Source: Allostella vacuolata
GTDB lineage: Bacteria > Pseudomonadota > Alphaproteobacteria > ATCC43930 > Allostellaceae
Direction of reading: 5' to 3'
DNA: 64,000 nucleotides
Assembly: GCA_006739055.1 (NCBI GenBank)
Contig: AP019702.1
Coordinates: 868,501-932,500 of the forward strand
This document shows positions 48,298-62,718 of this stretch, piece by piece. Made by a program: the position numbers and the translations under genes. The notes under the pieces were generated by a model. That model was not told the DNA's origin, did no database searches, and saw only the letters and a program-made list of their open reading frames with translations. Numbering within the stretch: position 1 is the first letter of the stretch; the number at the start of each line of letters is the position of its first letter.

Positions 48298-48378
48298 GGG
48301 ACCGTCCTCTCCCGTTCGTGCGGTTCGTTCGCTTTGCCTGCGTCGCACGAGCGGGAGTGGTGGTTCATGACAGAATAT

Positions 48379-49905
48379 TCAGGCCGGCTTCGCCCCCGGC
48401 ACCCCGTTCTCGACCACGAAGCTCGCCAGCGGGCGGACCGCGGAGTCGGGCTCGAAGGCGTCGTCGACCGCCATCAGGTCGGCGCGCGCGCTGTCCCGGG
48501 CCAGGGTCATCGCCACGTAGCCGCGCTTGTCGCCGCGGGCGTAGCGGATGTGCGGGTTCTCGGCCAGGCCGGTGCGGATGGCGGTGTCGCTCGGCCCTTG
48601 CGAGGTGATCGAGGTGCCGACGATCTCGCTCGCCAGCGTGGCCGAGGACGGGTCGGCGAAATCCCGCTTCAGGTCGGCGACCCAGAAGGCGTGGACGTCG
48701 CCGCTGATGACGACCGGGTTGGACGGCCGGTGCCGCTCGATCGCCCCCAGCAGGCGGGCGCGGGCGGCCGGGTGCCCGTCCCAGCCGTCCATCCAGAAGG
48801 ACTGGCCCTCGCCCGCCTTGCGGTCCAGCTCGGCCATCAGCGTCTGCTGGGCAAGGATGGTCCAGCGGCCCCCGGCCTCGCCGAGGCGCCGGTCGAGCCA
48901 GGCTTCCTGGTCGGCGCCCAGCATGGTGCGGGCGGCATCCGTGCGCTCCAGGCAGCCGGGCCGCTCCGGAGCATTGTTCCTGGCCATGCCGCAGGGCGGG
49001 TGCGAACGGTACTGCCGGTCGTCGAGCAGCGTCAGGTCGAGCATGTCGCCGAAGCGGTAGTGCTCGTGGATGCGCATGTCCGCCCCTTGCGGGCGCGCGG
49101 CCATGGGCAGCGGCATGTGCTCCCAGTAGGCCTGGTAGGCGGCGGCGCGGATGCGCCGGAACTGGCCGGGATCCTCCGTGCGCGGCGAGCGGTCGCCCGT
49201 GTAGTCGTTGGCGACCTCGTGGTCGTCCCAGATGGCGACCCAGGGCGCGATGCGATGGGCGGCCGCCAGGTCCGGGTCGCTCTTGTAGAGCGCCCAGCGG
49301 TCGCGGAACTCCCACAGCTCGGTCGGGATCGCGCCCGGGTGGCGGCGGACGTGCCGGCGGCCCCAGGACATCTCGTAGATGTAGTCGCCCAGATGCACGA
49401 CGAGGTCGAGGTCCTGGCCGGCCATGTGGCGATAGGCCGAGAAGTAGCCGTGTTCGTACATCTGGCAGGAGGCGAAGGCGAAGCGGAAGCGCTCGACCGC
49501 CGCCCCCGGTGCCGGCGCGGTGCGGGTGCGCCCGACCGGGCTCTCGGCCCCCAGGGCGCGGAACCGGTACCAGTAGGTGCGCCCCGGCGCCAGGCCGGCC
49601 GGCTCGGCATGGACCGTGTGGCCATGCGCCGGGATGGCGGTGAAGGTGCCGCGGGCGGCGATGCGCCGGAAGCGCTCGTCCTCGGCCAGTTCCCAGTCCA
49701 CCTCGACCGGGGCGTCGGGCATGCCGCCGCCGTCCAGCGGCTGCGGCGCAAGGCGCGTCCACAGCACCAGCCGGTCGGGCCGCGGGCAGCCCGATGCTAC
49801 GCCGAGCGCGAAGGGGTCGGCCGATTGCGCCCGGCCGTGCCGCAGCACCGCGAGCGGACCGAGCACGGCGGCCCCCAGCAGGAGGCCGCGTCGGGTCAGG
49901 CGCAT
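48379..49905 (-). CDS. phoD: PhoD-family alkaline phosphatase/phosphodiesterase
   Basis: A 508-residue Tat-exported phosphatase. The N-terminus has a twin-arginine signal (LTRRGLLLGAAVLGPLAVL), then the Ig-like PhoD N domain and the metallophosphatase core with FASCQMYEHGYFSAYRHM, VHLGDYIYEMSWG, IWDDHEVANDYTGD and VVISGDVHAFWV, carrying the metal ligands. PhoD enzymes use calcium and iron and cleave phosphomono- and diesters, including glycerophosphate polymers. GGAGG precedes the ATG. It starts 4 bp after the ugpQ gene and is thus the last gene of the glycerophosphodiester operon, which fits an extracellular role in releasing substrates for that uptake system. Confidence 0.95.
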   Translation of the reverse strand: MRLTRRGLLLGAAVLGPLAVLRHGRAQSADPFALGVASGCPRPDRLVLWTRLAPQPLDGGGMPDAPVEVDWELAEDERFRRIAARGTFTAIPAHGHTVHAEPAGLAPGRTYWYRFRALGAESPVGRTRTAPAPGAAVERFRFAFASCQMYEHGYFSAYRHMAGQDLDLVVHLGDYIYEMSWGRRHVRRHPGAIPTELWEFRDRWALYKSDPDLAAAHRIAPWVAIWDDHEVANDYTGDRSPRTEDPGQFRRIRAAAYQAYWEHMPLPMAARPQGADMRIHEHYRFGDMLDLTLLDDRQYRSHPPCGMARNNAPERPGCLERTDAARTMLGADQEAWLDRRLGEAGGRWTILAQQTLMAELDRKAGEGQSFWMDGWDGHPAARARLLGAIERHRPSNPVVISGDVHAFWVADLKRDFADPSSATLASEIVGTSITSQGPSDTAIRTGLAENPHIRYARGDKRGYVAMTLARDSARADLMAVDDAFEPDSAVRPLASFVVENGVPGAKPA

Positions 49906-49909
49906 GGAA

Positions 49910-50650
49910 TCATCCTCCGTCCCGTTCGAGGATCGCCAGGTCTGGCCGGTCGGTGGTGATCTGGCGGATCGGCTGGCCCATCCAGTGGGCGATCTCGTCG
50001 GCCGTGTTGGCCATCCACACGCCGAGCCGGTCGCCGCCGATGCGGCGGAGGAAGAACTCCGGGTCGACCTCCATCAGCGCCACGTGGACGGCCATGGCGC
50101 AGCCCTCCATGGCGAGGAAGCGGTCCAGCATCGGGCCGACGCCGCCCATCATCTCGGCCGAGCGGCGGTCGACCGAGGCCAGGATGCCGGCCCTGGGGTC
50201 GATGGCGCGGATCGTCTCCAGCACCTCGGGCGCGAAGCTGGTGAAGAGCGTGCGCTCCATCAGGCAGAGGCGGCGGGTGATGTCGACCACCTTCTGCTCC
50301 AGCCCGGCATAGGGCCGGCCCAGCGCGTCGGTCTTGATCTCCAGCTGGATCTCGTAGCCGGTCGGCCGGAAGACCTCGAGCACGGCCTCCAGGGTCGGCA
50401 CCGTGTCGCCGCGGCCGTCGCGCAGCCGGATCTGGCCCAGCTCGGCGACCGTGCGGTCGACCACCAGGCCGCTGGCGTCGGTGGTGCGGTCGAGCGTGGC
50501 GTCGTGGATGACGACCACGCCGCCGTCGCGGGTGCCGTGCACGTCGAACTCGACGGCGTCGGCGGCCAGTGCGGCGGTGCGGCGGAAGCCGGACAGCCCG
50601 TTCTCGGCCCACAGGTTCCGGGCTCCGCGGTGGGCGACGATCATGACCAT
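49910..50650 (-). CDS. ugpQ: Glycerophosphodiester phosphodiesterase
   Basis: A 246-residue cytoplasmic enzyme that cleaves glycerophosphodiesters into glycerol phosphate and an alcohol. The GDPD motif is complete: His7-Arg8 (IVAHRGARN), Glu16-Asn17, Glu34 and Asp36 (VEFDVHGTRDGG) and His49 (VVIHDATLDRTT), with the catalytic Glu-Lys of QLEIKTD further on. No signal peptide, so it acts on imported substrate, like UgpQ. It lies 12 bp after ugpE and 4 bp before phoD in the same operon. Confidence 0.95.
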   Translation of the reverse strand: MVMIVAHRGARNLWAENGLSGFRRTAALAADAVEFDVHGTRDGGVVVIHDATLDRTTDASGLVVDRTVAELGQIRLRDGRGDTVPTLEAVLEVFRPTGYEIQLEIKTDALGRPYAGLEQKVVDITRRLCLMERTLFTSFAPEVLETIRAIDPRAGILASVDRRSAEMMGGVGPMLDRFLAMEGCAMAVHVALMEVDPEFFLRRIGGDRLGVWMANTADEIAHWMGQPIRQITTDRPDLAILERDGG

Positions 50651-50662
50651 GGGCAGGCGTTC

Positions 50663-51583
50663 CTATTTCGAGCTGTCAACCAGGCCCTTCACCAGCCAGC
50701 GCTGGAGGGCGACGACGACCACGACCGGCGGCAGCATGGTGATCAGCGCCGCGTTCATGGCGATGTTCCAGGCCGGCTCCATGTCCGAGCGCGGGATCAG
50801 GTGCTTCAGGCCGATGACCGCGGTCGCCATGTTCTTGTCGGTCGTGAAGAGCAGCGGCCAGAGATACTGGTTCCAGCCGTGCAGGAAGAGGATGATCGCC
50901 AGCGCCACCATGTTGGAGGTCGAGAGCGGCAGCAAGATGGAGCGGAAGAAGCGCCAGGGCGAGGCGCCGTCGATGCGTGCCGCCTCGCACAGCTCGTCCG
51001 GGATGGTCAGGAAGAACTGGCGGAAAAGGAAGGTGGCGGTGGCCGAGGCGATCAGCGGCAGGATCAGGCCGCTGTAGGTGTCGACCATGTTCCATTGCAG
51101 GGCGATCTCGATCCGGTTGCCGGTGATGGCGTGCCACCAGCCGGCCAGGTCCAGCTCGTCCACCACCCATTGCAGCGGCAGGGCGGCGTTGGCGACCGAT
51201 TCGAAGGTCGGCACGATGCGCACCTCGACCGGCAGCATCAGCGAGGCGAAGATCAGCCAGAAGGCGGTCATCCGCCAGCGGAAGCGGAAATAGGCGAGCG
51301 CGAAGGCCGACAGCATCGAGACCGCGATCTTGCCGACCGTGATGCCGACCGCGACGATCGCCGAGTTGACGAAGAGCCGGGCGAAGTTGCCCCTGGTCCA
51401 GGCGGCTTCGGCATTGACCAGGAACTGGTCGCCCGGCACCCAGGGCAGTGGCACCTGCTGCACCTCCTGGATCGTCAGCGAGCCGGCGACGAAGGCGAAG
51501 TAGATCGGCATGCAGACGATCGCGGCACCCAGCACCAGGATGGCGTGGCAGGCGAGGTCGAGGACGGGGGTGCGCTCGATCAT
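50663..51583 (-). CDS. ugpE: Glycerol-phosphate ABC permease UgpE
   Basis: A 306-residue inner-membrane permease of the MalG/UgpE type with six helices. The cytoplasmic EAA loop, ELCEAARIDGASPWRFFRSILLPLS, contacts the ATPase. YLWPLLFTTDKNMATAVIGLKHLI is typical of UgpE. The gene starts 3 bp after the ugpA stop. Together with UgpA and UgpB it should import sn-glycerol-3-phosphate or glycerophosphodiesters. The ATPase UgpC is not encoded here. Confidence 0.94.
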   Translation of the reverse strand: MIERTPVLDLACHAILVLGAAIVCMPIYFAFVAGSLTIQEVQQVPLPWVPGDQFLVNAEAAWTRGNFARLFVNSAIVAVGITVGKIAVSMLSAFALAYFRFRWRMTAFWLIFASLMLPVEVRIVPTFESVANAALPLQWVVDELDLAGWWHAITGNRIEIALQWNMVDTYSGLILPLIASATATFLFRQFFLTIPDELCEAARIDGASPWRFFRSILLPLSTSNMVALAIILFLHGWNQYLWPLLFTTDKNMATAVIGLKHLIPRSDMEPAWNIAMNAALITMLPPVVVVVALQRWLVKGLVDSSK

Positions 51584-51586
51584 GGC

Positions 51587-52498
51587 TCACACGTCATAGT
51601 TCACCTTGCGCTCGACATAGCGGAACTGCAGCAGCGTCAGGGTGAGGGCGGACAGCATCAGGATGACCGACTGGGCGGCCGACGAGCCGAGGTCGAGATT
51701 GACGAAGCCGTCCTGGTAGACCTTGTAGACCAGGATGTTGGTGGCGCCGGCCGGCCCGCCGCGGGTGACCGCGTCGATGATCGCGAAGGTGTCGAAGAAG
51801 CCGTAGACGAAGTTCATCACCGTCAGGAAGAAGATCGTCGGGCTGATCATCGGCAGGGCGATGAGGAAGAAGCGGCGCAGCGGCCCGGCGCCGTCGACGG
51901 CGGCCGCCTCCAGCAGCGACGGCGGCAGGGCCAGCAGGGCCGCCACCAGGAAGATGTAGTCGTAGCAGATGTGCTTCCAGGTCGCGGCGAGCGTGACCAG
52001 GATCAGCGCGTCGGCCGCATTCAGGTTGGGGTCCCAGCCGATGCCGATCGTGTGCAGGGCGTGCGCGATCGGGCCGACGGCGGGGTTGAACAGGAACGCC
52101 CACAGGATGCCGGCGATGGCCGGCGCGATCGCGTAGGGCAGCAGCAGGACCATCTTGTAGGTGCCGCGCAGGCGGATCACCCGGTCGGTCGCGAATGCCA
52201 GCACGCCCGCGATCGCCAGTGTCAGGATGCTCTGGGCGAGCGTGAACCACACCGTCACCCAGATCGACTCGTGGTACTCCGCGCTGCGGAAGAGCGCGGT
52301 GAAATTGTCGAACCAGACGAACTGGACGCGGGCGCCGAACGGGTCCGCGAGCAGGAACGACTGCGCCAGCGCCCGGATCGAGGGGATGAAGAAGAAGAGC
52401 AGGAGGATGGCGAGTTGCGGCAGCAGCAGCAGGGCTGCGACCCGCGGCTCCACGAAGTGGGCGCGCTTCAGGCCAGACTCCCGGCGGCTGCCGGCCAT
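51587..52498 (-). CDS. ugpA: Glycerol-phosphate ABC permease UgpA
   Basis: A 303-residue inner-membrane permease of the MalF/UgpA type with six helices. It has LPYAIAPAIAGILWAFLFNPAVGPIA in the middle, the EAA loop SLLEAAAVDGAGPLRRFFLIALPMISP and VYKVYQDGFVNLDLGSSAAQSVILM at the end, all typical of UgpA. It is the second transporter gene of the operon, 69 bp after ugpB, and overlaps nothing. It pairs with UgpE to form the membrane channel. Confidence 0.94.
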   Translation of the reverse strand: MAGSRRESGLKRAHFVEPRVAALLLLPQLAILLLFFFIPSIRALAQSFLLADPFGARVQFVWFDNFTALFRSAEYHESIWVTVWFTLAQSILTLAIAGVLAFATDRVIRLRGTYKMVLLLPYAIAPAIAGILWAFLFNPAVGPIAHALHTIGIGWDPNLNAADALILVTLAATWKHICYDYIFLVAALLALPPSLLEAAAVDGAGPLRRFFLIALPMISPTIFFLTVMNFVYGFFDTFAIIDAVTRGGPAGATNILVYKVYQDGFVNLDLGSSAAQSVILMLSALTLTLLQFRYVERKVNYDV

Positions 52499-52567
52499 GA
52501 TGGGGATTCCCGGATGCGGATGGTGGCCGGGGCGACGCTGGGGGCCGCCCCGGCCGGTCCAAGAGGG

Positions 52568-53884
52568 TCAGTACTTGCCCTGATTCAGCTTCTCGAACTG
52601 GCGCAGGATCTCGTTGCCGCGCCGGACGGAATCGTCCAGCGCCTGCTGCGGCTGCTTCTTGCCGGTCATCACCGCCTCCATCTCCTGGCGCAGCGCGAAG
52701 GTGGTCTGGGTGAAGTTGCCGAAGCGGAAGCCCATCGAATTCTCGGTCGGCGTGCCGCGGCCGAGCTGCAGGACGGCGATCTCGCGGGTCGGGTTCTGGG
52801 TGTAGTAGCCCTCGTCCCTGGCCATCTTGTAGGCGGCATTGGTCAGCGGCACGTAGCCCGTCACCTTGTGCCACCAGACCTGCGTCCTGGGGCTGGCCAG
52901 GTGGTTGAAGAAGGCGGCCACGCCCGCATACTCCTCGGCCTTGTGGCCCTTCAGCACCCAGATGGTGGCGCCGCCGATGGTGCTGTTGCGCGGGGTGGCG
53001 ACGTCGGCCTCGTGAGGCAGGAAAGTGGCGCTCCACGGGATGGTCGCGTTGCGCTCCATCGCCCCATGGTCGGCGGTCGAGGAGATGTAGGTCGCGCACT
53101 TGCCCGAGGCGAACAGCTGCTGCGGGCTGAGGCCGGTGCCGGCCAGCTGCAGCACGCCGTCGTCGAGCCACTTCTTCAGGCGGGTCACCTGGCCCACCAC
53201 CTTCGTCTTGTTGTAGACGAACTCGGTGTCGATGCCCTCGAAGCCGTTCGACCGGGTGGCGAAGGGCTGGTCGTTGATGGCGCTGTAGTTCTCGATCAGG
53301 CTCCAGAAATAGTCGTTGGCGAGCGCGGTGCCGCACTCGGCCGCGCCCTTGGCCTTGATCGCGTAGAGCTGCTTCTCGAACTCCTGCCAGGTGGCGGCCG
53401 GCTTCTCGAAGCCGGCCTTGGCGAACTGGTCCTTGTTGTACCAGAGGATCGGCGTCGAGGAGTTGAAGGGCATCGTCATCAGGTTGCCCTTGTAGGTGTA
53501 GAAACCGGCCACCGGCTTGATGAAGTCCGACCAGTCGACGTCGTACTTCTGCTCCTTCATGAGCTGGTGGACGGGCACGACCGCGTCCGAAAGCAGCATG
53601 GTCATGAAGCCGCGCTCGTAGATCTGCACCAGGTGGGGATGGCGCTTGGCCCGATAGGCGGCGATGGTGCCGTTGATGACCTCGTCGTAGTTGCCCTTGT
53701 TGACGGCGACCACGGTGTACTTGTCCTGGGCCTCGTTGAAGCCTTTGACCAGCTCGTTGACCCGCTCGCCCAGCACGCCGCCCATGGCGTGCCACCATTG
53801 CACCTCGACCCGCTGGGCCGATGCGGGGGCGGCGGCGAGGCCGAGCAGGACTCCGCCCAGCAGCAGATTGCGTCCGAAGGTCAT
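52568..53884 (-). CDS. ugpB: Glycerol-phosphate ABC binding protein UgpB
   Basis: A 438-residue periplasmic receptor. The signal peptide is residues 1-23 (FGRNLLLGGVLLGLAAAPASAQ). The mature protein begins VEVQWWHAMGGVLGERVNELVKGFNEAQDKYTVV, the standard start of UgpB, with MPFNSSTPILWYNKDQFAKAG and STIGGATIWVLKGHK. E. coli UgpB binds sn-glycerol-3-phosphate and glycerophosphodiesters. GGGAGGA precedes the ATG at 53884. It lies 25 bp downstream of the glycerol-1-phosphate-dehydrogenase-like gene and probably shares its transcript. Confidence 0.95.
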   Translation of the reverse strand: MTFGRNLLLGGVLLGLAAAPASAQRVEVQWWHAMGGVLGERVNELVKGFNEAQDKYTVVAVNKGNYDEVINGTIAAYRAKRHPHLVQIYERGFMTMLLSDAVVPVHQLMKEQKYDVDWSDFIKPVAGFYTYKGNLMTMPFNSSTPILWYNKDQFAKAGFEKPAATWQEFEKQLYAIKAKGAAECGTALANDYFWSLIENYSAINDQPFATRSNGFEGIDTEFVYNKTKVVGQVTRLKKWLDDGVLQLAGTGLSPQQLFASGKCATYISSTADHGAMERNATIPWSATFLPHEADVATPRNSTIGGATIWVLKGHKAEEYAGVAAFFNHLASPRTQVWWHKVTGYVPLTNAAYKMARDEGYYTQNPTREIAVLQLGRGTPTENSMGFRFGNFTQTTFALRQEMEAVMTGKKQPQQALDDSVRRGNEILRQFEKLNQGKY

Positions 53885-53909
53885 CTTCCGTCCTCCCAGG
53901 GTGGTTTCT

Positions 53910-55265
53910 TCAGCCGGTCCCGGCCTGCGCGCCCCAGAAGCCATTGGGGGCGAACAGGGAATCGACCGCCTCGTCGAGCCGGCCCAGGTCGGCCAGCAGG
54001 TCGAGCAGCGTGTAGCGCCGGCGGATCAGCCGGGCGCGGCGATAGTCGGCGGCGAGCTTGGCGGCGGTGACGCCGATCTGGCCGGGCCTGGCCGGTGCGC
54101 CGGCGGCGGCGAGCCAGCCCTGCATCCGGGCCGCCGCTGGCAGGCGGGCCGCCAGCCGCCGGCGCAGGTCGGGCCACACCGCGCCCAGCCGCTCCAGCCG
54201 CTGCCGCAGCCGCTCGGGCGAGGGCCGCTTGGCGGCCATCTCGGCGGCGGCGCTGGCGGCCATGCCGGGGTCGGGAAAGGCGGCGGCGACCAGGGTCGCC
54301 TCGTCGGCGGCGGACATCTGCCGCGCCAGGCCCCGTGCCGCGTCGAAATCGGGCCGGGCCAGCAGCCATTCGTAGAGGGCGAGCATGGCGACGCAGCCGA
54401 TGCCGACGCAGGCCCCGTGCGAGACCGGCTCGCCCGCATGGGCGAGCCCCTCCATCTCCCACAGGTGGGCGAACTGGTGGTCGCTGCCGCTGGCCGGGCG
54501 CGAGGTGCCGTGCGCCTGCATGGCGAAGCCGGTGATCAGGAGGCCCTGCATCAGGCCGCGTAGCGCCGCCGGCTCGCGCCGCGGCAGGCCGTCCGGCCGG
54601 CCCAGCATCGCCAGCAGGTCGTCCTGCACCAGGGCGAAGGGGCCGGGCGCGATCGCCTCCTCGCCGAGCGCATCGGCCAGGATCCAGTCGGCGCCGGCGA
54701 CGATCTTGCCGGCGAGGTCGCCATAGCCCCAGGCGGACATGCGGGCGGGGGCGGCGGCGATGACGTCGAGGTCGGCCAGCACGGCGACCGGCGGCGGGCA
54801 GGGCAGGGTGCGCTTGAAGTCGCCGTCGAGCAGGGCCGCGCCGGAGGCGGCATAGCCATCCATCGAGGCGGCGGTGGCGACGACGGCATAGGGGGTGCCG
54901 GCCAGCTCGGCCGCGCGCTTGACGAGGTCGTTGACGACGCCCGCGCCGACCGCGACCGGGACGGCGCGCTCCGAGCGGATGCGGGCCGCGATCTCCTCGG
55001 TATGGGCAACCCGCGGCTTGAGGCGCGGCCGGCCCGGCAGGATCAGGCTGCCATGGGCGATGCCGGCCGCCGCCAGGATCGCCGCCGCGGCCCGGCCCGC
55101 CGCCGCATGGGTGTTCTCGTCGGCCACCAGCAGGATCGGTCCGTCGGGCAGGTGGCGGCGCAGCAGCCCGGGCAGGGCGTCCGATGCGCCGCGCTCCAGC
55201 ACCACCTCGCGCGTGACCGATGCCCCCCGCACCGCCCGCTCCAGACTGTCAGCGGATCCGTCCAT
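53910..55265 (-). CDS. sn-Glycerol-1-phosphate dehydrogenase-like protein
   Basis: A 451-residue enzyme of the iron-containing/GldA-like dehydrogenase fold, closest to sn-glycerol-1-phosphate dehydrogenase (archaeal EgsA, bacterial AraM). NAD(P)-binding VAVGAGVVNDL at 104-114 and ATAASMDGYAASGA at 130-143; metal ligands Asp183 (GYGDLAGK), His263 (SGSDHQFAH) and His283 (SHG) are all present. Such enzymes interconvert dihydroxyacetone phosphate and sn-glycerol-1-phosphate. The ATG at 55265 follows GGAGAGG. It is the first gene of an operon with ugpBAE, ugpQ and phoD, pointing to breakdown of an imported glycerol phosphate rather than lipid synthesis. The stereospecificity is inferred from family only. 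Confidence 0.88.
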   Translation of the reverse strand: MDGSADSLERAVRGASVTREVVLERGASDALPGLLRRHLPDGPILLVADENTHAAAGRAAAAILAAAGIAHGSLILPGRPRLKPRVAHTEEIAARIRSERAVPVAVGAGVVNDLVKRAAELAGTPYAVVATAASMDGYAASGAALLDGDFKRTLPCPPPVAVLADLDVIAAAPARMSAWGYGDLAGKIVAGADWILADALGEEAIAPGPFALVQDDLLAMLGRPDGLPRREPAALRGLMQGLLITGFAMQAHGTSRPASGSDHQFAHLWEMEGLAHAGEPVSHGACVGIGCVAMLALYEWLLARPDFDAARGLARQMSAADEATLVAAAFPDPGMAASAAAEMAAKRPSPERLRQRLERLGAVWPDLRRRLAARLPAAARMQGWLAAAGAPARPGQIGVTAAKLAADYRRARLIRRRYTLLDLLADLGRLDEAVDSLFAPNGFWGAQAGTG

Positions 55266-55308
55266 GCCTCTCCAGCCGCATCTCCGACGCCCGCGAGGGT
55301 TACCATGG

Positions 55309-55349
55309 TTCGCGAACATTTGTATAGGATAGGATACTTATGTTGCGAA
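55309..55349. promoter_or_regulatory. Imperfect inverted repeat, candidate SorC site
   Basis: TTCGCGAACATTTGTAT (55309-55325) faces ATACTTATGTTGCGAA (55334-55349). Read in the same direction both arms give TTCGC-AACAT--GTAT. The AACATAAGT core of the right arm recurs in the perfect palindrome at 55409-55426, so both are probably bound by the adjacent SorC regulator. This copy lies just upstream of the leftward operon (ATG at 55265). Confidence 0.6.
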
Positions 55350-55372
55350 GCGATGACGTTCGCGGAGCCGGC

Positions 55373-55426
55373 TTGACAGGCCGGCTGGCCGGGAACATTA
55401 TTTCATCCTACGAACATAAGTTCGTA
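55373..55426 (+). promoter_or_regulatory. Promoter and operator of the sorC-kinase operon
   Basis: A perfect -35 box TTGACA (55373-55378) and CATTAT (55396-55401) are 17 bp apart, the ideal spacing. The -35 box lies in the loop of a perfect 7-bp hairpin (AGCCGGC 55366-55372, GCCGGCT 55380-55386). Eight bases after the -10 box is TACGAAC-ATAA-GTTCGTA (55409-55426), a perfect palindrome over the expected transcription start, 18 nt before the regulator's GTG: a good position for autorepression. Confidence 0.7.
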
Positions 55427-55443
55427 TCCGATCGGCGGGGGCT

Positions 55444-56415
55444 GTGGTGGAAGACGAGATCGGTCTCGCGACGCGGGCCGCCTGGATGCATTTCGCGGGC
55501 GGCCTGACCCAGTCCGAGGTGGCCGAGCGCCTCGGCATCACCCGGCTCAAGGCCCACCGGCTGGTCGCGCGCGCCGCCCGCGACGGGCTGGTCCGCGTCT
55601 TCATCGACGGCGAGATCGCCGAGTGTGCGCAGATGGAGGGCGTCCTGTCTGCCGCGCACGGGCTGGACTTCTGCCGCGTCGTGCCGGTGCTGGACGACGA
55701 CCCGCTGCCGCTGAAGGCGCTCGGCATCGTCGGCGCCCAGTATCTGAAGGGCGTGCTGGAGCGCGACGAGGACACGCTGATCGGCGTCGGGCACGGGCGC
55801 ACGCTGGCGTCCTGCGCCGACCACCTGATCCGCATGGCGGTGAAGCGGACCCGCTTCGTGTCGCTTCTGGGCGGCCTGACCCGCAAATTCTCCGCCAACC
55901 CGCACGACGTCATCCATCGCCTCGCCGACCGCACCGGCGCGGAGGCCTATGTCCTGCCGGTCCCGTTCATCGCGAACTCGGTCGAGGACCGGGCCGTCCT
56001 GCTGGCCCAGCGCGGCGTGTCGGAAGTGTTCGACCTCGCCCGGCGCGCCAGCCTGCTCTTCGTCAGCATCGGGGCGGTCGAGACCCAGGCCTCGCTGATC
56101 GCCACCGGCATGATCGAGCGCGGCGACATGGAGCGGGTGCGGCGCGACGGCGGCTGCGGCGAGATCCTCGGCTGGTTCTTCGACCGCGCCGGGCGGCCGG
56201 TCGACACCGAGGTCAGCCGGCGCATCCTGTCGCTCGACCTGGACGACCTGCGCCGCGGCCGCATCGTCGCGATCGCCGGCGGCGTCGCCAAGGTGGAGGC
56301 GATCGCCTCCATCCTGGCCAGCGGCCTGCTCAAGGGCCTGATCGTCGACGAGCGGACCGCCCGCATCCTGGTCGAGCGCCTGGACCGGCCGCAAGGTACG
56401 GCTGCCCGCCGCTGA
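55444..56415 (+). CDS. SorC-family sugar/polyol-responsive regulator
   Basis: A 323-residue SorC-family transcription factor, resembling the erythritol regulator EryD. The HTH is at about 20-50 (GGLTQSEVAERLGITRLKAHRLVARAARDG). The sugar-phosphate-binding domain follows, with TLIGVGHGRTLASCADHL, VSLLGGLTRKFSANPHDV and VAIAGGVAKVEAIASILASGLLKGLIVDERTA. The start is GTG at 55444 (or the next codon) after a G-run. It heads the rightward operon, and operator-like palindromes lie upstream of both divergent operons, so it probably controls both; the inducer would be a phosphorylated intermediate. Confidence 0.92.
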   Translation: MVEDEIGLATRAAWMHFAGGLTQSEVAERLGITRLKAHRLVARAARDGLVRVFIDGEIAECAQMEGVLSAAHGLDFCRVVPVLDDDPLPLKALGIVGAQYLKGVLERDEDTLIGVGHGRTLASCADHLIRMAVKRTRFVSLLGGLTRKFSANPHDVIHRLADRTGAEAYVLPVPFIANSVEDRAVLLAQRGVSEVFDLARRASLLFVSIGAVETQASLIATGMIERGDMERVRRDGGCGEILGWFFDRAGRPVDTEVSRRILSLDLDDLRRGRIVAIAGGVAKVEAIASILASGLLKGLIVDERTARILVERLDRPQGTAARR

Positions 56416-56416
56416 C

Positions 56417-58033
56417 ATGGCCGCCGCTGACATGCCCGCCGCCGAGATCGCTGTCGCGGAAACATCCGGGCCGATCCTCATCGGCGTCGATGCCGGTACC
56501 TCCGTCATCAAGGCCGTCGCCTTCACGCCGGACGGCCTGCCGGTCGCCGTGACCTCGGTCCCGAACTGCTGGCAGAAGTCGGCCGGCGGCGCTGCCGAGC
56601 AGGACCTGGCGGCGACCTGGGCCGCGACCGCCCGGACCCTGCGGGCCATGGCCGATCGAGTGCCGGACCTGTCGCGGCGACTGGCCGGCATCGCCGTCAC
56701 CGGGCAGGGCGACGGTACCTGGCTGGTGGATGCGGCGGGCGAACCGGTCGGGCCGGCGATGCTGTGGCTCGACGCCCGTGCCGGGCGGATCGCCGGCGAG
56801 CTGCGCCGGGGCCCGGCCGACGCCGCGCGCTTCGCCGCCACCGGCACCGGGCTCGCCGCTTGCCAGCAGGGGCCGCAACTCGCCTGGCTCGGCCGCCACC
56901 AGCCCGAACGCCTGGCCGCCGCGGCGACGGCCTTCCACTGCAAGGACTGGCTCTATCTCAGGCTGACCGGCCGGCGGGCGACCGACCCGTCCGAGGCCAC
57001 GCTCAGCTTCGGCGATTTCCGCACCCGCGCCTACAGCGCGACGGTGCTGGATGCCCTCGGCCTGGCCCCGCAGCGCCGGCTGCTGCCGGGGATCGTCGAC
57101 GGCACCATCGAGCATGCCGGCCTCTCGGCCGATGCCGCGCGGGCGACCGGGCTGCCGGCGGGGACGCCGGTGGTGCTGGGCTATATCGACATCGTCTGCT
57201 CGGCCCTGGGGGCCGGGCTCTACGACCCCGACGAAGGGGTCGGCACCAGCATCGTCGGCTCGACCGGCATGCACATGCGCCGGGTCGACGGGGCCGACCG
57301 CGTCGCGCTGTCGTCCGACCGGACCGGCTACACGATCGCCTTTCCGGTGCCCGGCACCTATGCCCAGATGCAGTCGAACCTGGCGGCAACCTTGAACATC
57401 GACTGGGTGCTCGACCTGATCGGCGGCGTCCTGGCGGCCGAGGGCATCCGGCGCGACCGCGCCGACCTGCTGGCCGGCATCGACCGGCTGCTGGAGACGA
57501 CGGCCCCGGGCACCCTGCTTTTCCATCCCTACATCGCCGACGGCGGCGAGCGCGGCCCGTTCGTCGATGTCGGTGCCAGCGCCGCCTTCTTCGGCCTGTC
57601 GGTCCGGCACGGCCATGCCGACCTGGTGCGCGCGGTGTTCGAGGGCCTGGCCTTCGCCGCGCGCGACTGCTACGCGGCGATGGGGCCGCTGCCGCGCGAG
57701 GTGCGCATGTCGGGCGGGGCGGCGCGCAGCCGGGTCCTGCGCGGGATGCTCGCCGCCGCCCTCGATGCGCCGGTCCGCGTCAGCACGCGCGCGGAGGCCG
57801 GTGCGGCGGGCGCGGCCATGATCGCCGCGGTCTGCCTCGGCATCCATCGCGACATGGAGGAATGCGCCGCCCGCTGGGTGCGACCCCATCTCGGCCCTCC
57901 GCTGGCGCCCGACGCCGGACTGGTCGCGGCCTACCGCCGCCTGTTCCCGGCCTACCAGGAGGCGCGGCGGGCGATGCCGCCCGTGTGGCGCCGCCTTGCC
58001 ACGGCCGAGGCGGAACGCGGCGGCCATGCCTAG
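56417..58033 (+). CDS. EryA-like FGGY-family polyol kinase
   Basis: A 538-residue FGGY kinase most like erythritol kinase EryA. The N-terminal ATPase fold has IGVDAGTSVIKAVAF (Asp25), then VTGQGDGTWLVD and PAMLWLDARAG, the EryA-type version of the substrate region, CKDWLYLRLTGRRATDPSEATLSFGDFRTR, and GTSIVGSTGMHMR. The C-terminal half has FHPYIADGGERGPFVD and MSGGAARSRVLRGMLA. It should phosphorylate a polyol or ketose with ATP. It starts one base after the regulator stop; a 15-bp duplication across this junction gives a second ATG at 56432. The substrate is not proven. Confidence 0.9.
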   Translation: MAAADMPAAEIAVAETSGPILIGVDAGTSVIKAVAFTPDGLPVAVTSVPNCWQKSAGGAAEQDLAATWAATARTLRAMADRVPDLSRRLAGIAVTGQGDGTWLVDAAGEPVGPAMLWLDARAGRIAGELRRGPADAARFAATGTGLAACQQGPQLAWLGRHQPERLAAAATAFHCKDWLYLRLTGRRATDPSEATLSFGDFRTRAYSATVLDALGLAPQRRLLPGIVDGTIEHAGLSADAARATGLPAGTPVVLGYIDIVCSALGAGLYDPDEGVGTSIVGSTGMHMRRVDGADRVALSSDRTGYTIAFPVPGTYAQMQSNLAATLNIDWVLDLIGGVLAAEGIRRDRADLLAGIDRLLETTAPGTLLFHPYIADGGERGPFVDVGASAAFFGLSVRHGHADLVRAVFEGLAFAARDCYAAMGPLPREVRMSGGAARSRVLRGMLAAALDAPVRVSTRAEAGAAGAAMIAAVCLGIHRDMEECAARWVRPHLGPPLAPDAGLVAAYRRLFPAYQEARRAMPPVWRRLATAEAERGGHA

Positions 58034-59081
58034 CGCCGACATCCGGGCGACCGTCGCCATCGTCGGCGACCGCTTCATGGAGGCGCGGGCCTTCCGGTCG
58101 GCGCTGGCGGCGGCCTGCGGCGACGGGCTGGCGACGCGGGCCGTCGACCTGGCCTGGCCGGACGTGCCGATGCGCAACGCCGAGCCGGGCTCGGCCCTGG
58201 CGGGCCTGCGGGAATATCTGGGCGAGCCGGCCGAGATCGTCGACTTCGTCGGCGACGCGGAGATCCTGGTGACCCACCTGGCGCCGCTTTCCGACGCGAT
58301 GATGGGGGCGCTGCCGGCCCTGCGCCTGGTCGCGGTGTCGCGCGGCGGGCCGGTCAACATCGACTTGGCCTCGGCCCGCCGGCGCGGGGTGCGGGTGGTC
58401 AACGTGCCCGGCCGCAACGCCAGCGCGGTGGCGGAATTCACGATCGGCGCCATCCTGGCCGAGACCCGGCTGATCCGCGCCGGGCACGAGAGCCTGCGCC
58501 GCGGCGAATGGCGCGGCGACCTCTACCGCGCCGACGTGACCGGCCGCGAGCTGTCGGAGCTGACGGTCGGCATCGTCGGCTATGGCGAGGTCGGGACGCG
58601 CGTGGTGCGCCTGCTGCGCGCGTTCGGCTGCCGCACCCTGGTGGCCGATCCCTATGCGCGCCTGTCGAACGCGGACCGCGCGGCCGGGGTCGAACTGGTC
58701 CTGCTGGACGAGCTGCTGGCCGGGTCGGACGTCGTCTCGCTGCACGCCCGGGTGACGCCGGAGACGACGGGGATGATGGACGCCGCCCGCTTCGCGCGGA
58801 TGCGCCCGGGTGCGATCTTCGTCAACACCGCGCGCGGTCCCCTGGTCGACTACGACGCCCTGCACGACGCGCTCGTCTCGGGCCACCTGCGCGGCGCGAT
58901 GCTGGAGACGTTCGGCATCGAGCCGCCGCCGGCCGACTGGCCGCTGCTCAAGCTGCCCAACGTGACGCTCACCCCGCACATCGCCGGCGCCTCGCTGCGC
59001 ACCGTCGCCTATGCCGCCGCCCGGGTGGCCGACGAGGTGCGCCGCTACCTGGCCGGCGAGCCGCCCCTGCAACCCTGCTGA
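58026..59081 (+). CDS. D-isomer-specific 2-hydroxyacid dehydrogenase
   Basis: A 351-residue NAD-dependent dehydrogenase of the SerA/2-hydroxyacid family. The Rossmann motif VGIVGYGEVGTRVVRLL starts at 181; catalytic residues are Arg270 (FVNTARGPLVD), a Glu in LETFGIEPPP (Glu294 or Glu299) and His318 (TPHIAGAS). It oxidises a 2-hydroxyacid or reduces a 2-oxoacid. The start overlaps the kinase stop by 8 bp, so the two are coupled. In this operon it might handle a tetronate or glycolate-like product, but the substrate cannot be read from the sequence. Confidence 0.9.
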   Translation: MPSADIRATVAIVGDRFMEARAFRSALAAACGDGLATRAVDLAWPDVPMRNAEPGSALAGLREYLGEPAEIVDFVGDAEILVTHLAPLSDAMMGALPALRLVAVSRGGPVNIDLASARRRGVRVVNVPGRNASAVAEFTIGAILAETRLIRAGHESLRRGEWRGDLYRADVTGRELSELTVGIVGYGEVGTRVVRLLRAFGCRTLVADPYARLSNADRAAGVELVLLDELLAGSDVVSLHARVTPETTGMMDAARFARMRPGAIFVNTARGPLVDYDALHDALVSGHLRGAMLETFGIEPPPADWPLLKLPNVTLTPHIAGASLRTVAYAAARVADEVRRYLAGEPPLQPC

Positions 59082-59096
59082 CACCGGAGAGATTTC

Positions 59097-59765
59097 ATGG
59101 ATTCCGAAGAGCGCGCCCTGCGCCAGGCGATCATCGACAAGTGCGTGTGGATGAATGCCTCGGGCTTCAACCAGGGCACGTCCGGCAACATCTCGGCGCG
59201 CTGGGGCGACCGCATGCTGATCACCCCCAGCGCCACCCCCTACGAGCAGCTGGCGCCGGAGGCGATCGCCGCCATGCCGCTGGCCGACGAGACCGGTGCC
59301 TGGGACGGCCCGCTGAAGCCGTCGACCGAATGGCGCTTCCACCGCGACATCCTGCGCGCCCGGCCGGATGCCGGCGCCGTCGTCCACACCCATTCGACCT
59401 TCGCCACCGTGCTCGCGATCGCGCGCCGGGAGATCCCCTCGTGCCACTACATGATCGCGGCCTTCGGCGGCGACGAGATCCGCTGCGCGGACTATGCGAC
59501 CTACGGCACGGCCGAGCTGTCGGCCAACGCGCTGAAGGCGCTGGACGGGCGCAACGGCTGCCTGCTCGCCAACCACGGCATGATCGCGATCGGCAGCAAC
59601 CTCGACAAGGCGATGTGGCTGGCGGTCGAACTGGAGACGATCGCCAAGCAATACTATCATGCCTTGCTGCTGGACGGCGGGCCGGTGCTGCTGTCGGCCG
59701 GGCAGATCGCCGACACCCGCCGCAGCTTCGCCACCTACGGGCTGCAGGACCGCAAGTCGGCGTGA
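59097..59765 (+). CDS. FucA-like class II aldolase
   Basis: A 222-residue zinc-dependent aldolase of the class II aldolase/adducin family. The zinc and catalytic set is complete with spacing equal to L-fuculose-1-phosphate aldolase: Glu78 (PSTEWRFH), His97 and His99 (VVHTHSTFA), His160 (LANHGMIA); the phosphate loop is GTSGNISAR (27-35). It would split a ketose 1-phosphate into dihydroxyacetone phosphate and an aldehyde, or decarboxylate in an OtnC-like way. GGAGAG precedes the ATG. Six bases after its stop the GlpD-type gene starts. Confidence 0.92.
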   Translation: MDSEERALRQAIIDKCVWMNASGFNQGTSGNISARWGDRMLITPSATPYEQLAPEAIAAMPLADETGAWDGPLKPSTEWRFHRDILRARPDAGAVVHTHSTFATVLAIARREIPSCHYMIAAFGGDEIRCADYATYGTAELSANALKALDGRNGCLLANHGMIAIGSNLDKAMWLAVELETIAKQYYHALLLDGGPVLLSAGQIADTRRSFATYGLQDRKSA

Positions 59766-59770
59766 GCGCG

Positions 59771-61270
59771 ATGCCCGCGGTGTCGGATACGGTCGACCTG
59801 CTGGTGGTGGGCGGCGGGGTCAACGGCGCCGGCATCGCCCGCGACGCCGCCGGCCGCGGCCTGTCGGTCGTCCTGTGCGAGAAGGACGACCTCGGCCAGG
59901 GGACCAGCTCGCGCTCCGGCAAGCTGGTCCATGGCGGCCTGCGCTACCTGGAATATTACGAGTTCCGCCTGGTGCGCGAGGCGCTGATCGAGCGCGAGGT
60001 GCTGCTGGCGGCCGCCCCGCACATCATCTGGCCGATGCGCTTCGTGCTGCCGCACGCGGCGTCCGCCCGGCCGGCCTGGCTGGTGCGGCTCGGGCTCCTC
60101 CTCTACGACCATCTGGGCGGCCGCAAGCGCCTGCCCGGCACCCGCACCCTCGACCTGCGCCGCGCGCCCGAGGGCCGGGCGCTGGCCGACCCGCCGCGCA
60201 TCGGCTTCGAGTATTCCGACTGCTGGGTCGACGACGCGCGCCTCGTCGTCCTCAATGCGATCGACGCCGCCGAGCGGGGCGCGCAGATCCTGTCCCGCAC
60301 CGCCTGCATCTCCGCCCGGCGCGAGGGCGGGCTGTGGCGGGCGGAGCTGGAAGGGCCGGGCGGGCGCCGCGGGGTGACGGCGCGGGTGCTGGTCAATGCC
60401 GCCGGACCCTGGGTCAAGGACGTGATCGGCCGCGTCGCCGGGCTGAACTCCGCCCGCAACGTCCGGCTGGTCAAGGGCAGCCACATCGTCGTGCCCAAGT
60501 TCTGGGACGGCCCGCACGCCTTCCTGCTCCAGAACCACGACCGCCGGGTGATCTTCGTCAACCCCTACGAGGGCGACCTGTGCCTGATCGGCACCACCGA
60601 CATCCCGCATGAGGGCCCGGCCGAAACGGTGGCGATCGACGCGCGCGAGATCGATTATCTTCTGGACGTGGTGAATCGCTATTTCCGCCGCGGCCTGTCC
60701 CGCGCCGACATCGTCCACGCCTATTCCGGCGTGCGCCCGCTCTATGACGATGCGGCGGAGAACCCGAGCGCGGTCACCCGCGACTATGTCTTCGACCTCG
60801 ATGCCCCGGCGGGCGGGGCACCGCTGCTGTCGGCCTTCGGCGGCAAGATCACCACCTTCCGCAAGCTGTCGGAGCATGCGCTGCGCACCCTGGAGCCCTT
60901 CTTTCCCAGCCTCCGGCCGGCCTGGACCGCGGGCGCACCGCTACCGGGTGGCGACATGGAAGATGCCGATTTCGACCGCTTCCTGGCGGGCTTCCGCGCC
61001 GCCCGGCCGTGGCTGCCGGCGGACCTGTCGCTCCACCTGGCCCGGCTCTACGGCACCCGCGCCGGCCGCGTGCTGGGCGATGCCGGCGCGAGGGCCGATC
61101 TCGGCCGGCACTTCGGCGGCCTTCTCTACGAGCGCGAGGCCCGCTACCTGATGGCGCACGAATGGGCCCAGGCAGCCGACGACATCCTCGACCGACGCAC
61201 CAAGCACGGGCTGCACCTAACGCCGGCCGAGCGCGGCGCGTTCACGGCATGGATGGCCGGCGCGCCGTGA
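59771..61270 (+). CDS. glpD: GlpD-type FAD glycerol-3-phosphate dehydrogenase
   Basis: A 499-residue FAD-dependent dehydrogenase of the GlpD family, which also includes erythritol-phosphate dehydrogenase EryB. FAD binding: DLLVVGGGVNGAGIARDAAGRGLSVVLCEKDDLGQGTSSRSGKLVHGGLRYLE (residues 8-61, summarised by GGGVNGAG and SSRSGKLVHGG). Also VKGSHIVVPKF, IGTTDIPHEG and SGVRPLYDD before the C-terminal helical domain. It passes electrons to quinone at the membrane. A GTG at 59762, overlapping the aldolase stop (GTGA), could add three residues. Its place in a polyol operon, not beside glpK, leaves glycerol-3-phosphate or a tetritol phosphate as substrate. Confidence 0.92.
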   Translation: MPAVSDTVDLLVVGGGVNGAGIARDAAGRGLSVVLCEKDDLGQGTSSRSGKLVHGGLRYLEYYEFRLVREALIEREVLLAAAPHIIWPMRFVLPHAASARPAWLVRLGLLLYDHLGGRKRLPGTRTLDLRRAPEGRALADPPRIGFEYSDCWVDDARLVVLNAIDAAERGAQILSRTACISARREGGLWRAELEGPGGRRGVTARVLVNAAGPWVKDVIGRVAGLNSARNVRLVKGSHIVVPKFWDGPHAFLLQNHDRRVIFVNPYEGDLCLIGTTDIPHEGPAETVAIDAREIDYLLDVVNRYFRRGLSRADIVHAYSGVRPLYDDAAENPSAVTRDYVFDLDAPAGGAPLLSAFGGKITTFRKLSEHALRTLEPFFPSLRPAWTAGAPLPGGDMEDADFDRFLAGFRAARPWLPADLSLHLARLYGTRAGRVLGDAGARADLGRHFGGLLYEREARYLMAHEWAQAADDILDRRTKHGLHLTPAERGAFTAWMAGAP

Positions 61271-62718
61271 CGGGCGCGCTCTGGCTCGGCATCGACGTCG
61301 GCACCTCCTCGGTCAAGGCGGTGCTGGCGGATGATGGCGACCGGGTGGTGGCCGACGCCTCGGCGCCGCTTGCGGTCAACCGGCCGCGGCCGCTGTGGTC
61401 CGAGCAGGACCCGGACGCCTGGTGGCGGGCGACGGCGGCGGCCCTCGACCGGCTCGCCGCGGCGCATCCGGCGGACATGGGCCGGGTCGGGGCGATCGGC
61501 CTGTCCGGCCAGATGCTGGGCGTGGCGGCCCTCGACGGCCAGGGCCGGGCGATCCGCCCGGCGATCCTGTGGAACGACGGGCGCGCGGCGGCCGAGGGGC
61601 ATGCGCTGGAGGCCGCGGTGCCGGGCTTCGCCCGGATCACCGGCAGCCGGCCGATGCCGGGCTTCCCGGCCGCCAAGCTGCGCTGGCTGGCGAAGCATGA
61701 GCCCCGGGTGCTGGAGCAGGCGCGCCACATCCTGCTGCCCAAGGATTACGTCCGCTGGCGCCTGTCGGGCGAGGTGGCGTCGGACCGGGCCGACGCGTCG
61801 GCCACTTTGCTGATGGATACCGCGGCCGGCACCTGGCACCCGGCCATCCTGGACGCCTGCGGCATCCGGGCCGACCAGCTGCCGCGCCTGGTCGAGAGCG
61901 CCGAACCAGCCGGGCGCCTGCGGCCGGAGCTGGCCCGGCGCTGGTCGCTGCCGCCCCGCCTGCCGATCGCGGGCGGCGGCGGCGACAACATGTGCGGGGG
62001 GGTCGGCGCGGGCATCGTCGCGGATGGCGGCGCCTTCGTCAGCCTCGGCACCTCCGGGGTCTACTTCATCGCCAACCGCGGCTTCCAGTCGTCGGTCGGG
62101 CAGGGGATGCACACCCATCGCCACGCCGTGCCGGGCCTCTTCTGCCAGCAGGCGGTGATCCTGAGCGCCGCCGCCGCCCTGGCCTGGGTGGCGGACATAG
62201 TGGGCGCGCCCGATGTCGGCCAGCTGGCCGCCGCGGTCGAGGCGGCCCGCCTGGCGCCGGCGGACACGCCCGTCTTCACCCCGTACCTGGCCGGCGAGCG
62301 CACGCCGCACGACGATCCCGGCCTGCTCGCCGCCTTCTCCGGCCTGTCCTTTGCGACCGGCCGGCTGCACCTCGTCCAGGCGGTGCTGGAGGGCGTGGCC
62401 CTGGCGCTCGCCGACTGCCAGGACGCGCTCGCGGCGACCGGGGCGCCGCTCGCCGGGCCGCTGGTCCTGGTCGGCGGCGGGGCGCGCAGCCGGCTGTGGG
62501 CCGACCTGGTGGCGGCGGCGACCGGACGGCCCATCCTGGTCTCCGTGAATGCTGCCGTCGGCCCGGCGCTGGGCGCGGCGCGGCTGGCGCGCGCGAGCTG
62601 CGGTGGGGATCTGGTCGGGGGGGCGCCCGCCACCCTCTACGCGGGCGACCCGGACCCCGCCCTGGCCGATGCGCTGGCCGCGAAGCGGGTCCGCTACCAG
62701 GCCCATCCGCGCCGCTGA
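61267..62718 (+). CDS. xylB: Xylulokinase-like FGGY kinase
   Basis: A 483-residue FGGY kinase close in length and sequence to xylulokinase: LWLGIDVGTSSVKAVLAD at the N-terminus, IGLSGQMLGVAALD, RPAILWNDGRAAAE, HILLPKDYVRWRLSGE and, in the second domain, GGGGDNMCGGVGAG with the catalytic Asp and LVLVGGGARSRLWADL. It phosphorylates a ketose such as D-xylulose. The start is placed at GTG 61267, overlapping the upstream stop as GTGA and giving the family length; an ATG at 61249 would add six residues. It is the second kinase of the operon, unlike the first in subfamily, so the two probably act on different substrates. Confidence 0.9.
   Translation: MTGALWLGIDVGTSSVKAVLADDGDRVVADASAPLAVNRPRPLWSEQDPDAWWRATAAALDRLAAAHPADMGRVGAIGLSGQMLGVAALDGQGRAIRPAILWNDGRAAAEGHALEAAVPGFARITGSRPMPGFPAAKLRWLAKHEPRVLEQARHILLPKDYVRWRLSGEVASDRADASATLLMDTAAGTWHPAILDACGIRADQLPRLVESAEPAGRLRPELARRWSLPPRLPIAGGGGDNMCGGVGAGIVADGGAFVSLGTSGVYFIANRGFQSSVGQGMHTHRHAVPGLFCQQAVILSAAAALAWVADIVGAPDVGQLAAAVEAARLAPADTPVFTPYLAGERTPHDDPGLLAAFSGLSFATGRLHLVQAVLEGVALALADCQDALAATGAPLAGPLVLVGGGARSRLWADLVAAATGRPILVSVNAAVGPALGAARLARASCGGDLVGGAPATLYAGDPDPALADALAAKRVRYQAHPRR

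Follow-up and report, generated by a model that had tools for sequence, protein, structure and literature searches.

Why should the gene for a relative of sn-glycerol-1-phosphate dehydrogenase (G1PDH) stand at the head of an operon that resembles those for the import of glycerophosphodiesters? The question arises from the window, a 64,000-nucleotide stretch of the Allostella vacuolata genome, in which six genes between positions 48379 and 55265 encode an AraM/G1PDH-like dehydrogenase, homologues of UgpB, UgpA and UgpE, a phosphodiesterase of the glycerophosphodiester phosphodiesterase (GDPD) family and an exported PhoD-family enzyme. sn-Glycerol-1-phosphate (G1P) is the backbone of archaeal lipids; bacterial growth on it has been reported only recently, and the oxidising enzyme was not named in the open-licence PMC literature that we found. 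The locus consists of known families in a conserved arrangement that we did not find described in that literature, where we also found nothing linking AraM to Ugp catabolism. We propose a catabolic system, induced by its substrate, that consumes a phosphodiester containing glycerol or a polyol; AraM would act most likely on G1P, a reading to which we give about an even chance. The imported compound is probably a polyol phosphodiester.

The AraM-Ugp operon and its conservation

Profile matches confirmed all six open reading frames that a first-pass annotation, made from the sequence alone, had described as tightly spaced genes of these families, all on the minus strand:

48379..49905, minus strand: PhoD-family exported phosphatase/phosphodiesterase (Pfam PhoD 352 bits, PhoD_N 108 bits)
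49910..50650, minus strand: GDPD-family phosphodiesterase (Pfam GDPD 95.8 bits, over the cut-off of 23.6)
50663..51583, minus strand: UgpE-like ABC permease (NCBIfam UgpE 347.7 bits, over the cut-off of 297)
51587..52498, minus strand: UgpA-like ABC permease (NCBIfam UgpA 316.9 bits, under the cut-off of 335)
52568..53884, minus strand: UgpB-like substrate-binding protein of a separate clade (NCBIfam UgpB PRK10974 386 bits, under the cut-off of 411)
53910..55265, minus strand: AraM/G1PDH-like dehydrogenase, 451 amino acids (Pfam Fe-ADH_2, PF13685, 101 bits, cut-off 28)

The intergenic gaps from PhoD to AraM, in coordinate order, were 4, 12, 3, 69 and 25 bp. The AraM start at 55265 agreed with that of the congener G001, and for the UgpB-like gene a start located after the AraM stop (53884) was chosen. 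PhoD, which scored 492 bits against NCBIfam AlkPhosPhoDBac (under the cut-off of 1000), had a twin-arginine-like signal, TRRGLLLGAAV, when its N-terminus was read by eye. The same kind of reading showed no signal peptide in the GDPD, which is presumed to be cytoplasmic; it was one of five GDPD matches in its own genome, and its HRGARNLW..EN motif was common to the linked GDPD clade. The claim of a UgpBAE importer held for UgpE, which exceeded its equivalog cut-off, but not to the same degree for UgpB and UgpA, which stayed under theirs, and no UgpC ATPase was found among the twelve genes annotated with Pfam and NCBIfam profiles at 48379-62718. The UgpC of this genome sits in another cassette, the standard ugp locus (L024). 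Nor was the unit confined to six genes, because a divergent operon starting at 55444, missed by the first-pass annotation, is kept alongside in the genus.

All twelve genes were present in the congener G001, with identities of 78-96%, and the congener G003 had ten of them plus the start of the GDPD gene, where its contig ended. The fourth genome of the genus (G002) gave no AraM match and lacked the UgpB of the window's type, hereafter the special UgpB (best match 46%), with other UgpBs present; we counted this joint absence in one of the four genus genomes in favour of the proposal. A one-genome-per-species scan with an AraM alignment yielded at least 582 relatives, the best 80 loci being retained, and in 22 of these 80 AraM was immediately followed by a UgpB with over 60% identity to that of the window. 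Among these linked loci, one (L049) was the congener G003 again and 21 lay outside the genus, so that the gene order noted in the first-pass annotation proved to recur widely, in G001 as well as at these 21 loci. Its retention in G001 and G003, together with the 22 of 80 loci, suggested that the linkage is more than chance. A SorC regulator gene was found at all 22 linked loci, UgpA at 21, UgpE and GDPD at 20 each and PhoD at 10; the contigs of L028 and L033 ended before the missing UgpA, UgpE or GDPD genes, and 19 of the 21 loci outside the genus showed UgpBAE together with GDPD. What these loci share is AraM-UgpBAE-GDPD and, in divergent orientation, SorC; PhoD and a carbohydrate kinase described below (FGGY kinase 2, at more than 50% identity in 11 of the 22) are frequent extras. 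The carriers included Reyranella, Vineibacter, Microvirga, Variovorax and Rhodospirillales. When UgpC was searched for at the 22 linked loci, a long match of more than 50% identity was obtained only in L048 and partial ones (45-47%) in L046 and L031; RbsA-type matches, at 24-30% identity, were regarded as ABC ATPases of a generic kind and left uncounted.

A sample chosen independently of AraM (289 class-level genomes, that of the window included) contained an AraM-like match at E<=1e-30 in 15 genomes and an AraM of at least 55% identity in three, namely the window's own, G226 and G107. Exactly these three carried the special UgpB (E<=1e-150), which adjoined AraM in each case; G226 and L036 were treated as one genome, and G226 and G107 belong to one family. 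Among 398 phylum-level genomes, AraM was found at E<=1e-80 in two and the special UgpB in seven.

The dehydrogenase and the binding protein

The window AraM contained the TxxSxDG, SRPxSGxxH and HG motifs, which are also present in B. subtilis AraM (9h4x) and the archaeal proteins 5fb3 and 4rfl. The Asp and His residues of these shared motifs, which we take to be metal-binding, aligned with those of verified G1PDHs, and so did the SRPxSG motif. An AlphaFold model made with a 30-row alignment had a pLDDT of 94.6, and its best Foldseek match was B. subtilis AraM (9h4x, E 9.9e-22, TM 0.75/0.85), followed by the clostridial 3ce9 and then by archaeal G1PDHs. The protein is therefore like the Ni-dependent B. 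subtilis enzyme and archaeal EgsA in its Fe-ADH_2-type fold and active-site motifs. It is only 27% identical to B. subtilis AraM by structural alignment, and differs from it in being linked to an importer and phosphodiesterases and in probably working in the oxidative direction. Both are operon-encoded, the B. subtilis gene in what the accessible text of PMC5059525 calls the 'Ara operon'. In a tree of 91 AraM rows, all 24 Ugp-linked rows fell inside one clade of 28 rows (SH-aLRT 99), and the Ugp-linkage label required 3 changes compared with a mean of 21.6 after shuffling. L049 was left out of this tree as being the same contig as L018, and the archaeal and 9h4x rows were long or partial, which made their placement unsure. 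Motifs and predicted fold together point to G1P as the leading candidate substrate of the window enzyme, and the chances that it acts on this compound appear roughly balanced.

For the binding protein, sites were numbered after Phaeobacter UgpB, whose nine ligand residues were taken from the accessible part of PMC12718374. The site table comprised 25 AraM-linked rows (two from the same contig), 24 of which extended to the C-terminal sites. Tyr64, Glu88, Ser143 and Trp191 were kept in 25 of 25 rows, and Ser266, Gly303 and Tyr342 in 24 of 24. Trp188, in contrast, was replaced by Asn, Gly or Thr in every one of the 25, and Arg393 by Thr or Met in every one of the 24 that reached this site. The window protein itself kept seven of the nine residues, having lost Arg393 and the Trp188 of the Trp188/Trp191 clamp, whereas the standard UgpB of its own genome (L024) kept all nine. 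Since the four phosphate-contacting residues were retained and the glycerol contacts loosened, the pocket would suit a larger or different ligand, and because of the two replacements and the missed cut-off we classed the protein as UgpB-like and not as UgpB. The special UgpB formed a clade of 28 rows with 100/100 support in a UgpB tree (without L049 and the incomplete L033), on which the AraM label needed three changes.

Compared with the UgpBAEC/UgpQ system, the locus has homologues of UgpBAE, a GDPD and the phosphate contacts of UgpB in common, but its binding protein is without Trp188 and Arg393, its operon is without UgpC, and SorC, AraM and PhoD are added. According to the accessible text of PMC12718374 (PNAS, December 2025), G1P supports growth of Phaeobacter sp. 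MED193, where UgpB and GpxB have similar affinities for this compound and for sn-glycerol-3-phosphate (G3P). That system likewise ties a UgpB-family protein to G1P as carbon source; it differs in that its UgpB has both Trp residues and in that the components named in its figure legend are UgpB, C, A and E; the accessible text links neither a dehydrogenase nor a GDPD to them. In the main text of that paper, as far as it was accessible, the word 'dehydrogenase' concerned only biosynthetic enzymes and references, and no oxidising enzyme was named. UgpB of M. tuberculosis binds glycerophosphocholine and other glycerophosphodiesters, as stated in the accessible part of PMC8603345.

The genome that contains the window has two further UgpBs over the family cut-off, one of them beside UgpC. 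A paralogue over the cut-off in L025 (7625-8872) kept both Trp residues and had Gly for Glu88 and Asn for Arg393, and perhaps binds another ligand. Two rhizobial loci (L015 and L016) resembled that of the window in having SorC divergent from an AraM-like gene, GlpD and an FGGY kinase; a HAD gene was also present. Their AraM-like proteins were only 32-33% identical to that of the window, with Asn replacing the Asp presumed to bind metal and SRPASG changed to SHPGSM or SNHGSM, and neither a GDPD nor the special UgpB was found at either locus. Both proteins are annotated as sn-glycerol-1-phosphate dehydrogenase, an annotation that may be wrong.

The divergent operon

The plus-strand operon starts 178 bp from the AraM start, ends at 62718 and consists of six genes, which are given here with the region between the two operons:

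55266..55443, no strand: divergent promoter region of 178 bp with repeated ATGTTC/GAACAT half-sites
55444..56415, plus strand: SorC/DeoR-type sugar-binding regulator (Pfam Sugar-bind 225 bits)
56417..58033, plus strand: FGGY carbohydrate kinase 1 (Pfam FGGY_N 138.6 bits, FGGY_C 95.2 bits)
57996..59081, plus strand: D-2-hydroxyacid dehydrogenase family (Pfam 2-Hacid_dh_C 187 bits)
59097..59765, plus strand: class II (fuculose-1-phosphate type) aldolase family (Pfam Aldolase_II 180 bits)
59771..61270, plus strand: GlpD, FAD-dependent sn-glycerol-3-phosphate dehydrogenase (NCBIfam PRK13369 816 bits, cut-off 352)
61264..62718, plus strand: FGGY kinase 2, xylulokinase-like (NCBIfam XylB TIGR01312 451 bits, over the cut-off of 380)

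Several ATGTTC/GAACAT half-sites were kept in both congeners, parts of some being lost in G003, and they could serve as operators for SorC. From its profile score GlpD can be assigned with confidence. The best NCBIfam matches of FGGY kinase 1 (XylB, 228 bits, cut-off 380) and of the aldolase (PRK08087, 212.5 bits, cut-off 264) were under the respective cut-offs. FGGY kinase 2 had Leu instead of the His of the GQMHG motif, presumably an active-site residue, and for this reason was not classed as a xylulokinase. Leu was also found in the other FGGY kinase 2 matches of more than 40% identity at AraM loci, at the Ugp-linked ones and those of the sister AraM clade alike, with the exceptions of L015 (Tyr) and the second kinase of L056 (His), which suggests a distinct substrate for this putative kinase.

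Among the 22 linked loci, whose flanking genes were annotated in part, that of the congener was the only one with window-type matches for GlpD, the aldolase, the hydroxyacid dehydrogenase and FGGY kinase 1, and nine of the 22, some on short contigs, gave no FGGY match at all, so that AraM plausibly acts directly on the product of the GDPD. A GDPD gene also lay within about 6 kb of AraM at three loci with other transporters (L050, L060 and L103), which we counted in favour of the proposal. The window SorC was only 31-34% identical to the SorCs of the other 21 loci; regulator and accessory half may have been exchanged in this genus. At one further locus (L128, genome G070), a distant AraM-like gene has in its vicinity FGGY kinases, CUT1-type genes, a class II aldolase (63% identity to that of the window) and a SorC (49% identity to that of the window), and the added half of the window's locus may derive from a locus of this kind.

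Proposed route and competing explanations

From the families, gene order, conservation, motifs, predicted fold and pocket changes described above, we infer which substrates are used, in which direction and with which cofactor the dehydrogenase works, how the locus is regulated and that an ATPase is shared, as follows. The exported PhoD would trim larger phosphodiesters or polymers outside the cytoplasm, and the UgpB-like protein with UgpAE would import the diester, powered by an ATPase from another part of the genome, for instance the UgpC of the standard ugp cassette. The GDPD would split the imported diester in the cytoplasm, and the AraM-like enzyme would oxidise the freed polyol phosphate, likeliest G1P, to dihydroxyacetone phosphate (DHAP) with NAD(P)+. 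In this genus GlpD could take the other glycerol phosphate enantiomer, and the two FGGY kinases, the aldolase and the 2-hydroxyacid dehydrogenase could take the alcohol half. Control of both operons probably lies with SorC, acting at the 178-bp region between them. Lipoteichoic acid, which is made of G1P, and the phosphatidylglycerol headgroup carry this compound according to the accessible text of PMC7086022, which agrees with what the first-pass annotation had said of the headgroup. The same text describes GlpQ as sn-3 specific and PhoD as an endo-acting teichoicase; teichoic acid turnover in Bacillus thus also pairs PhoD with a GDPD-type enzyme on glycerol phosphate polymers, but in the window the GDPD lacks a visible signal and shares an operon with an importer. 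A complete mirror image of the Glp/Ugp pathway, with the binding protein, a GDPD opposite to GlpQ in stereospecificity, an FGGY kinase forming G1P from glycerol and AraM forming DHAP, fed by lipoteichoic acid, phosphatidylglycerol headgroups or archaeal lipids, appears improbable.

The G1P salvage role suggested in the first-pass annotation was partly supported, in that the route from phosphodiester to central metabolism was coherent and the dehydrogenase had the motifs and predicted fold of a G1PDH. What did not stand well was a plain Ugp import of G3P or G1P, which is opposed by the loss of Trp188 and Arg393 and by operon versions without AraM. The latter were found in five genomes (L134-L138) that had the special UgpB, likewise without Trp188 and Arg393, together with UgpAE, GDPD and SorC, and showed no AraM match within their 19.5-19.9 kb. 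Instead, four of the five had a HAD-IA phosphatase (L135, L136, L137 and L138), three an FGGY pentulose kinase (L134, L135 and L137) and two a Zn-dependent alcohol dehydrogenase (Zn-ADH; L134 and L138), with an SDR in L134 and a mannitol/arabinitol dehydrogenase-like gene in L138. To judge from this gene content, a C5 or C6 polyol may be part of the imported compound. Nothing else speaks as strongly against a simple role in G1P use as these loci, and it is on their account that we put our confidence in G1P no higher, even though a phosphatase would also be a sensible way to handle G1P. The PhoD homologue of L134 (5289-6649) aligned in six short pieces, as if broken or badly assembled.

Several other observations weigh against the proposal. 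AraM reached only 135 of the 413 bits required by the NCBIfam G1PDH equivalog PRK00843, and was filed as AraM/G1PDH-like and not as a member of that equivalog; a 288-residue stretch of B. subtilis AraM, used as a control, also stayed under this cut-off (187.5 bits), which consequently excludes a verified bacterial enzyme. Contacts with the glycerol moiety, expected for G1P or G3P as ligand, were lost in the UgpB-like pocket, PhoD was present at fewer than half of the linked loci, and the SorCs, being so divergent, need not be the same regulator. Four members of the 28-row AraM clade lacked the special UgpB: L050 had a GDPD and another CUT1-type transporter, L037 another CUT1-type transporter, and L034 a CUT1-type transporter with an exonuclease/endonuclease/phosphatase-family gene, and in L051 neither a GDPD/phosphatase-type gene nor a transporter was found. 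Relatives of the window AraM adjoined other ABC transporters without GDPD, and RpiB lay near AraM in 12 of the best 80 loci, mostly of Actinomycetota. Finally, a figure legend in the accessible part of PMC12718374 mentions racemic G1P, so that the growth data reported there may not concern the pure enantiomer.

Many of these points would be explained if AraM oxidised a longer polyol phosphate (C4-C5, such as erythritol, arabinitol or ribitol phosphate) and had G1P as a side substrate at most, which we consider a serious possibility, if a less probable one than G1P. The substrate would come from the GDPD acting on a polyol phosphodiester, a fragment of teichoic acid for example, or from the linked FGGY kinase, and the ketose phosphate would enter the pentose phosphate pathway or be cut by the class II aldolase. 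The dehydrogenases, kinases and phosphatases of the AraM-less operons, the neighbouring RpiB genes and the altered pocket favour this explanation, as does the sister AraM clade, which stands beside other CUT1 transporters, often with a Leu-type FGGY kinase and without GDPD. It is opposed by the match of motifs and predicted fold to verified G1PDHs and by the nine linked loci without an FGGY match, and the HAD phosphatase of the AraM-less loci would suit G1P as well, a compound that GlpD is not expected to use. Two further explanations seem very unlikely to us. In one, the locus would be an ordinary Ugp system that serves G3P and its diesters under phosphate starvation, with AraM as a passenger, as the UgpAE and GDPD families and PhoD might suggest; the genome, however, has two other UgpBs over the family cut-off, one with UgpC, the UgpB-like protein forms a separate clade with an altered pocket, AraM travels with the special UgpB in the class-level sample, and the regulator is of the SorC sugar type. 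In the other, which we hold to be slightly less probable still, AraM would be biosynthetic and turn DHAP into G1P, destined for an ether lipid of archaeal type or some other product made from G1P, and the ugp genes would be incidental neighbours. The accessible texts of PMC5059525 and PMC13400652 describe B. subtilis AraM as supplying G1P for such a lipid, but the tight and repeated linkage of AraM to an importer, GDPD and SorC speaks against this role here.

The locus, which named isolates of Variovorax, Microvirga and Reyranella carry, offers candidates for the enzyme, for a transporter clade (one whose pocket has changed) and for the regulator, and with these the fate of G1P phosphodiesters becomes open to direct tests.

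Of the genes around AraM, an SDR downstream of it in two sister-clade loci (L053 and L056) looked unrelated, and so did flanking MatE, Ada/AlkA and aldo-keto reductase genes, the flanking genes being only partly annotated. Two Rubrobacter plasmids (L013 and L014) had AraM-like genes, two of them in L013, among FGGY kinases and dihydroxyacetone kinase-family, RpiB, HAD-IIA and GlpD-type genes, which may together form a polyol pathway. In the window itself, the minus-strand gene adjoining PhoD (45796-48348) encodes a large protein with a metalloprotease-like motif, HEVGHGLGLGH, and many GGxGxD-type repeats (both seen by eye), and its product looks like a secreted serralysin-type protease.

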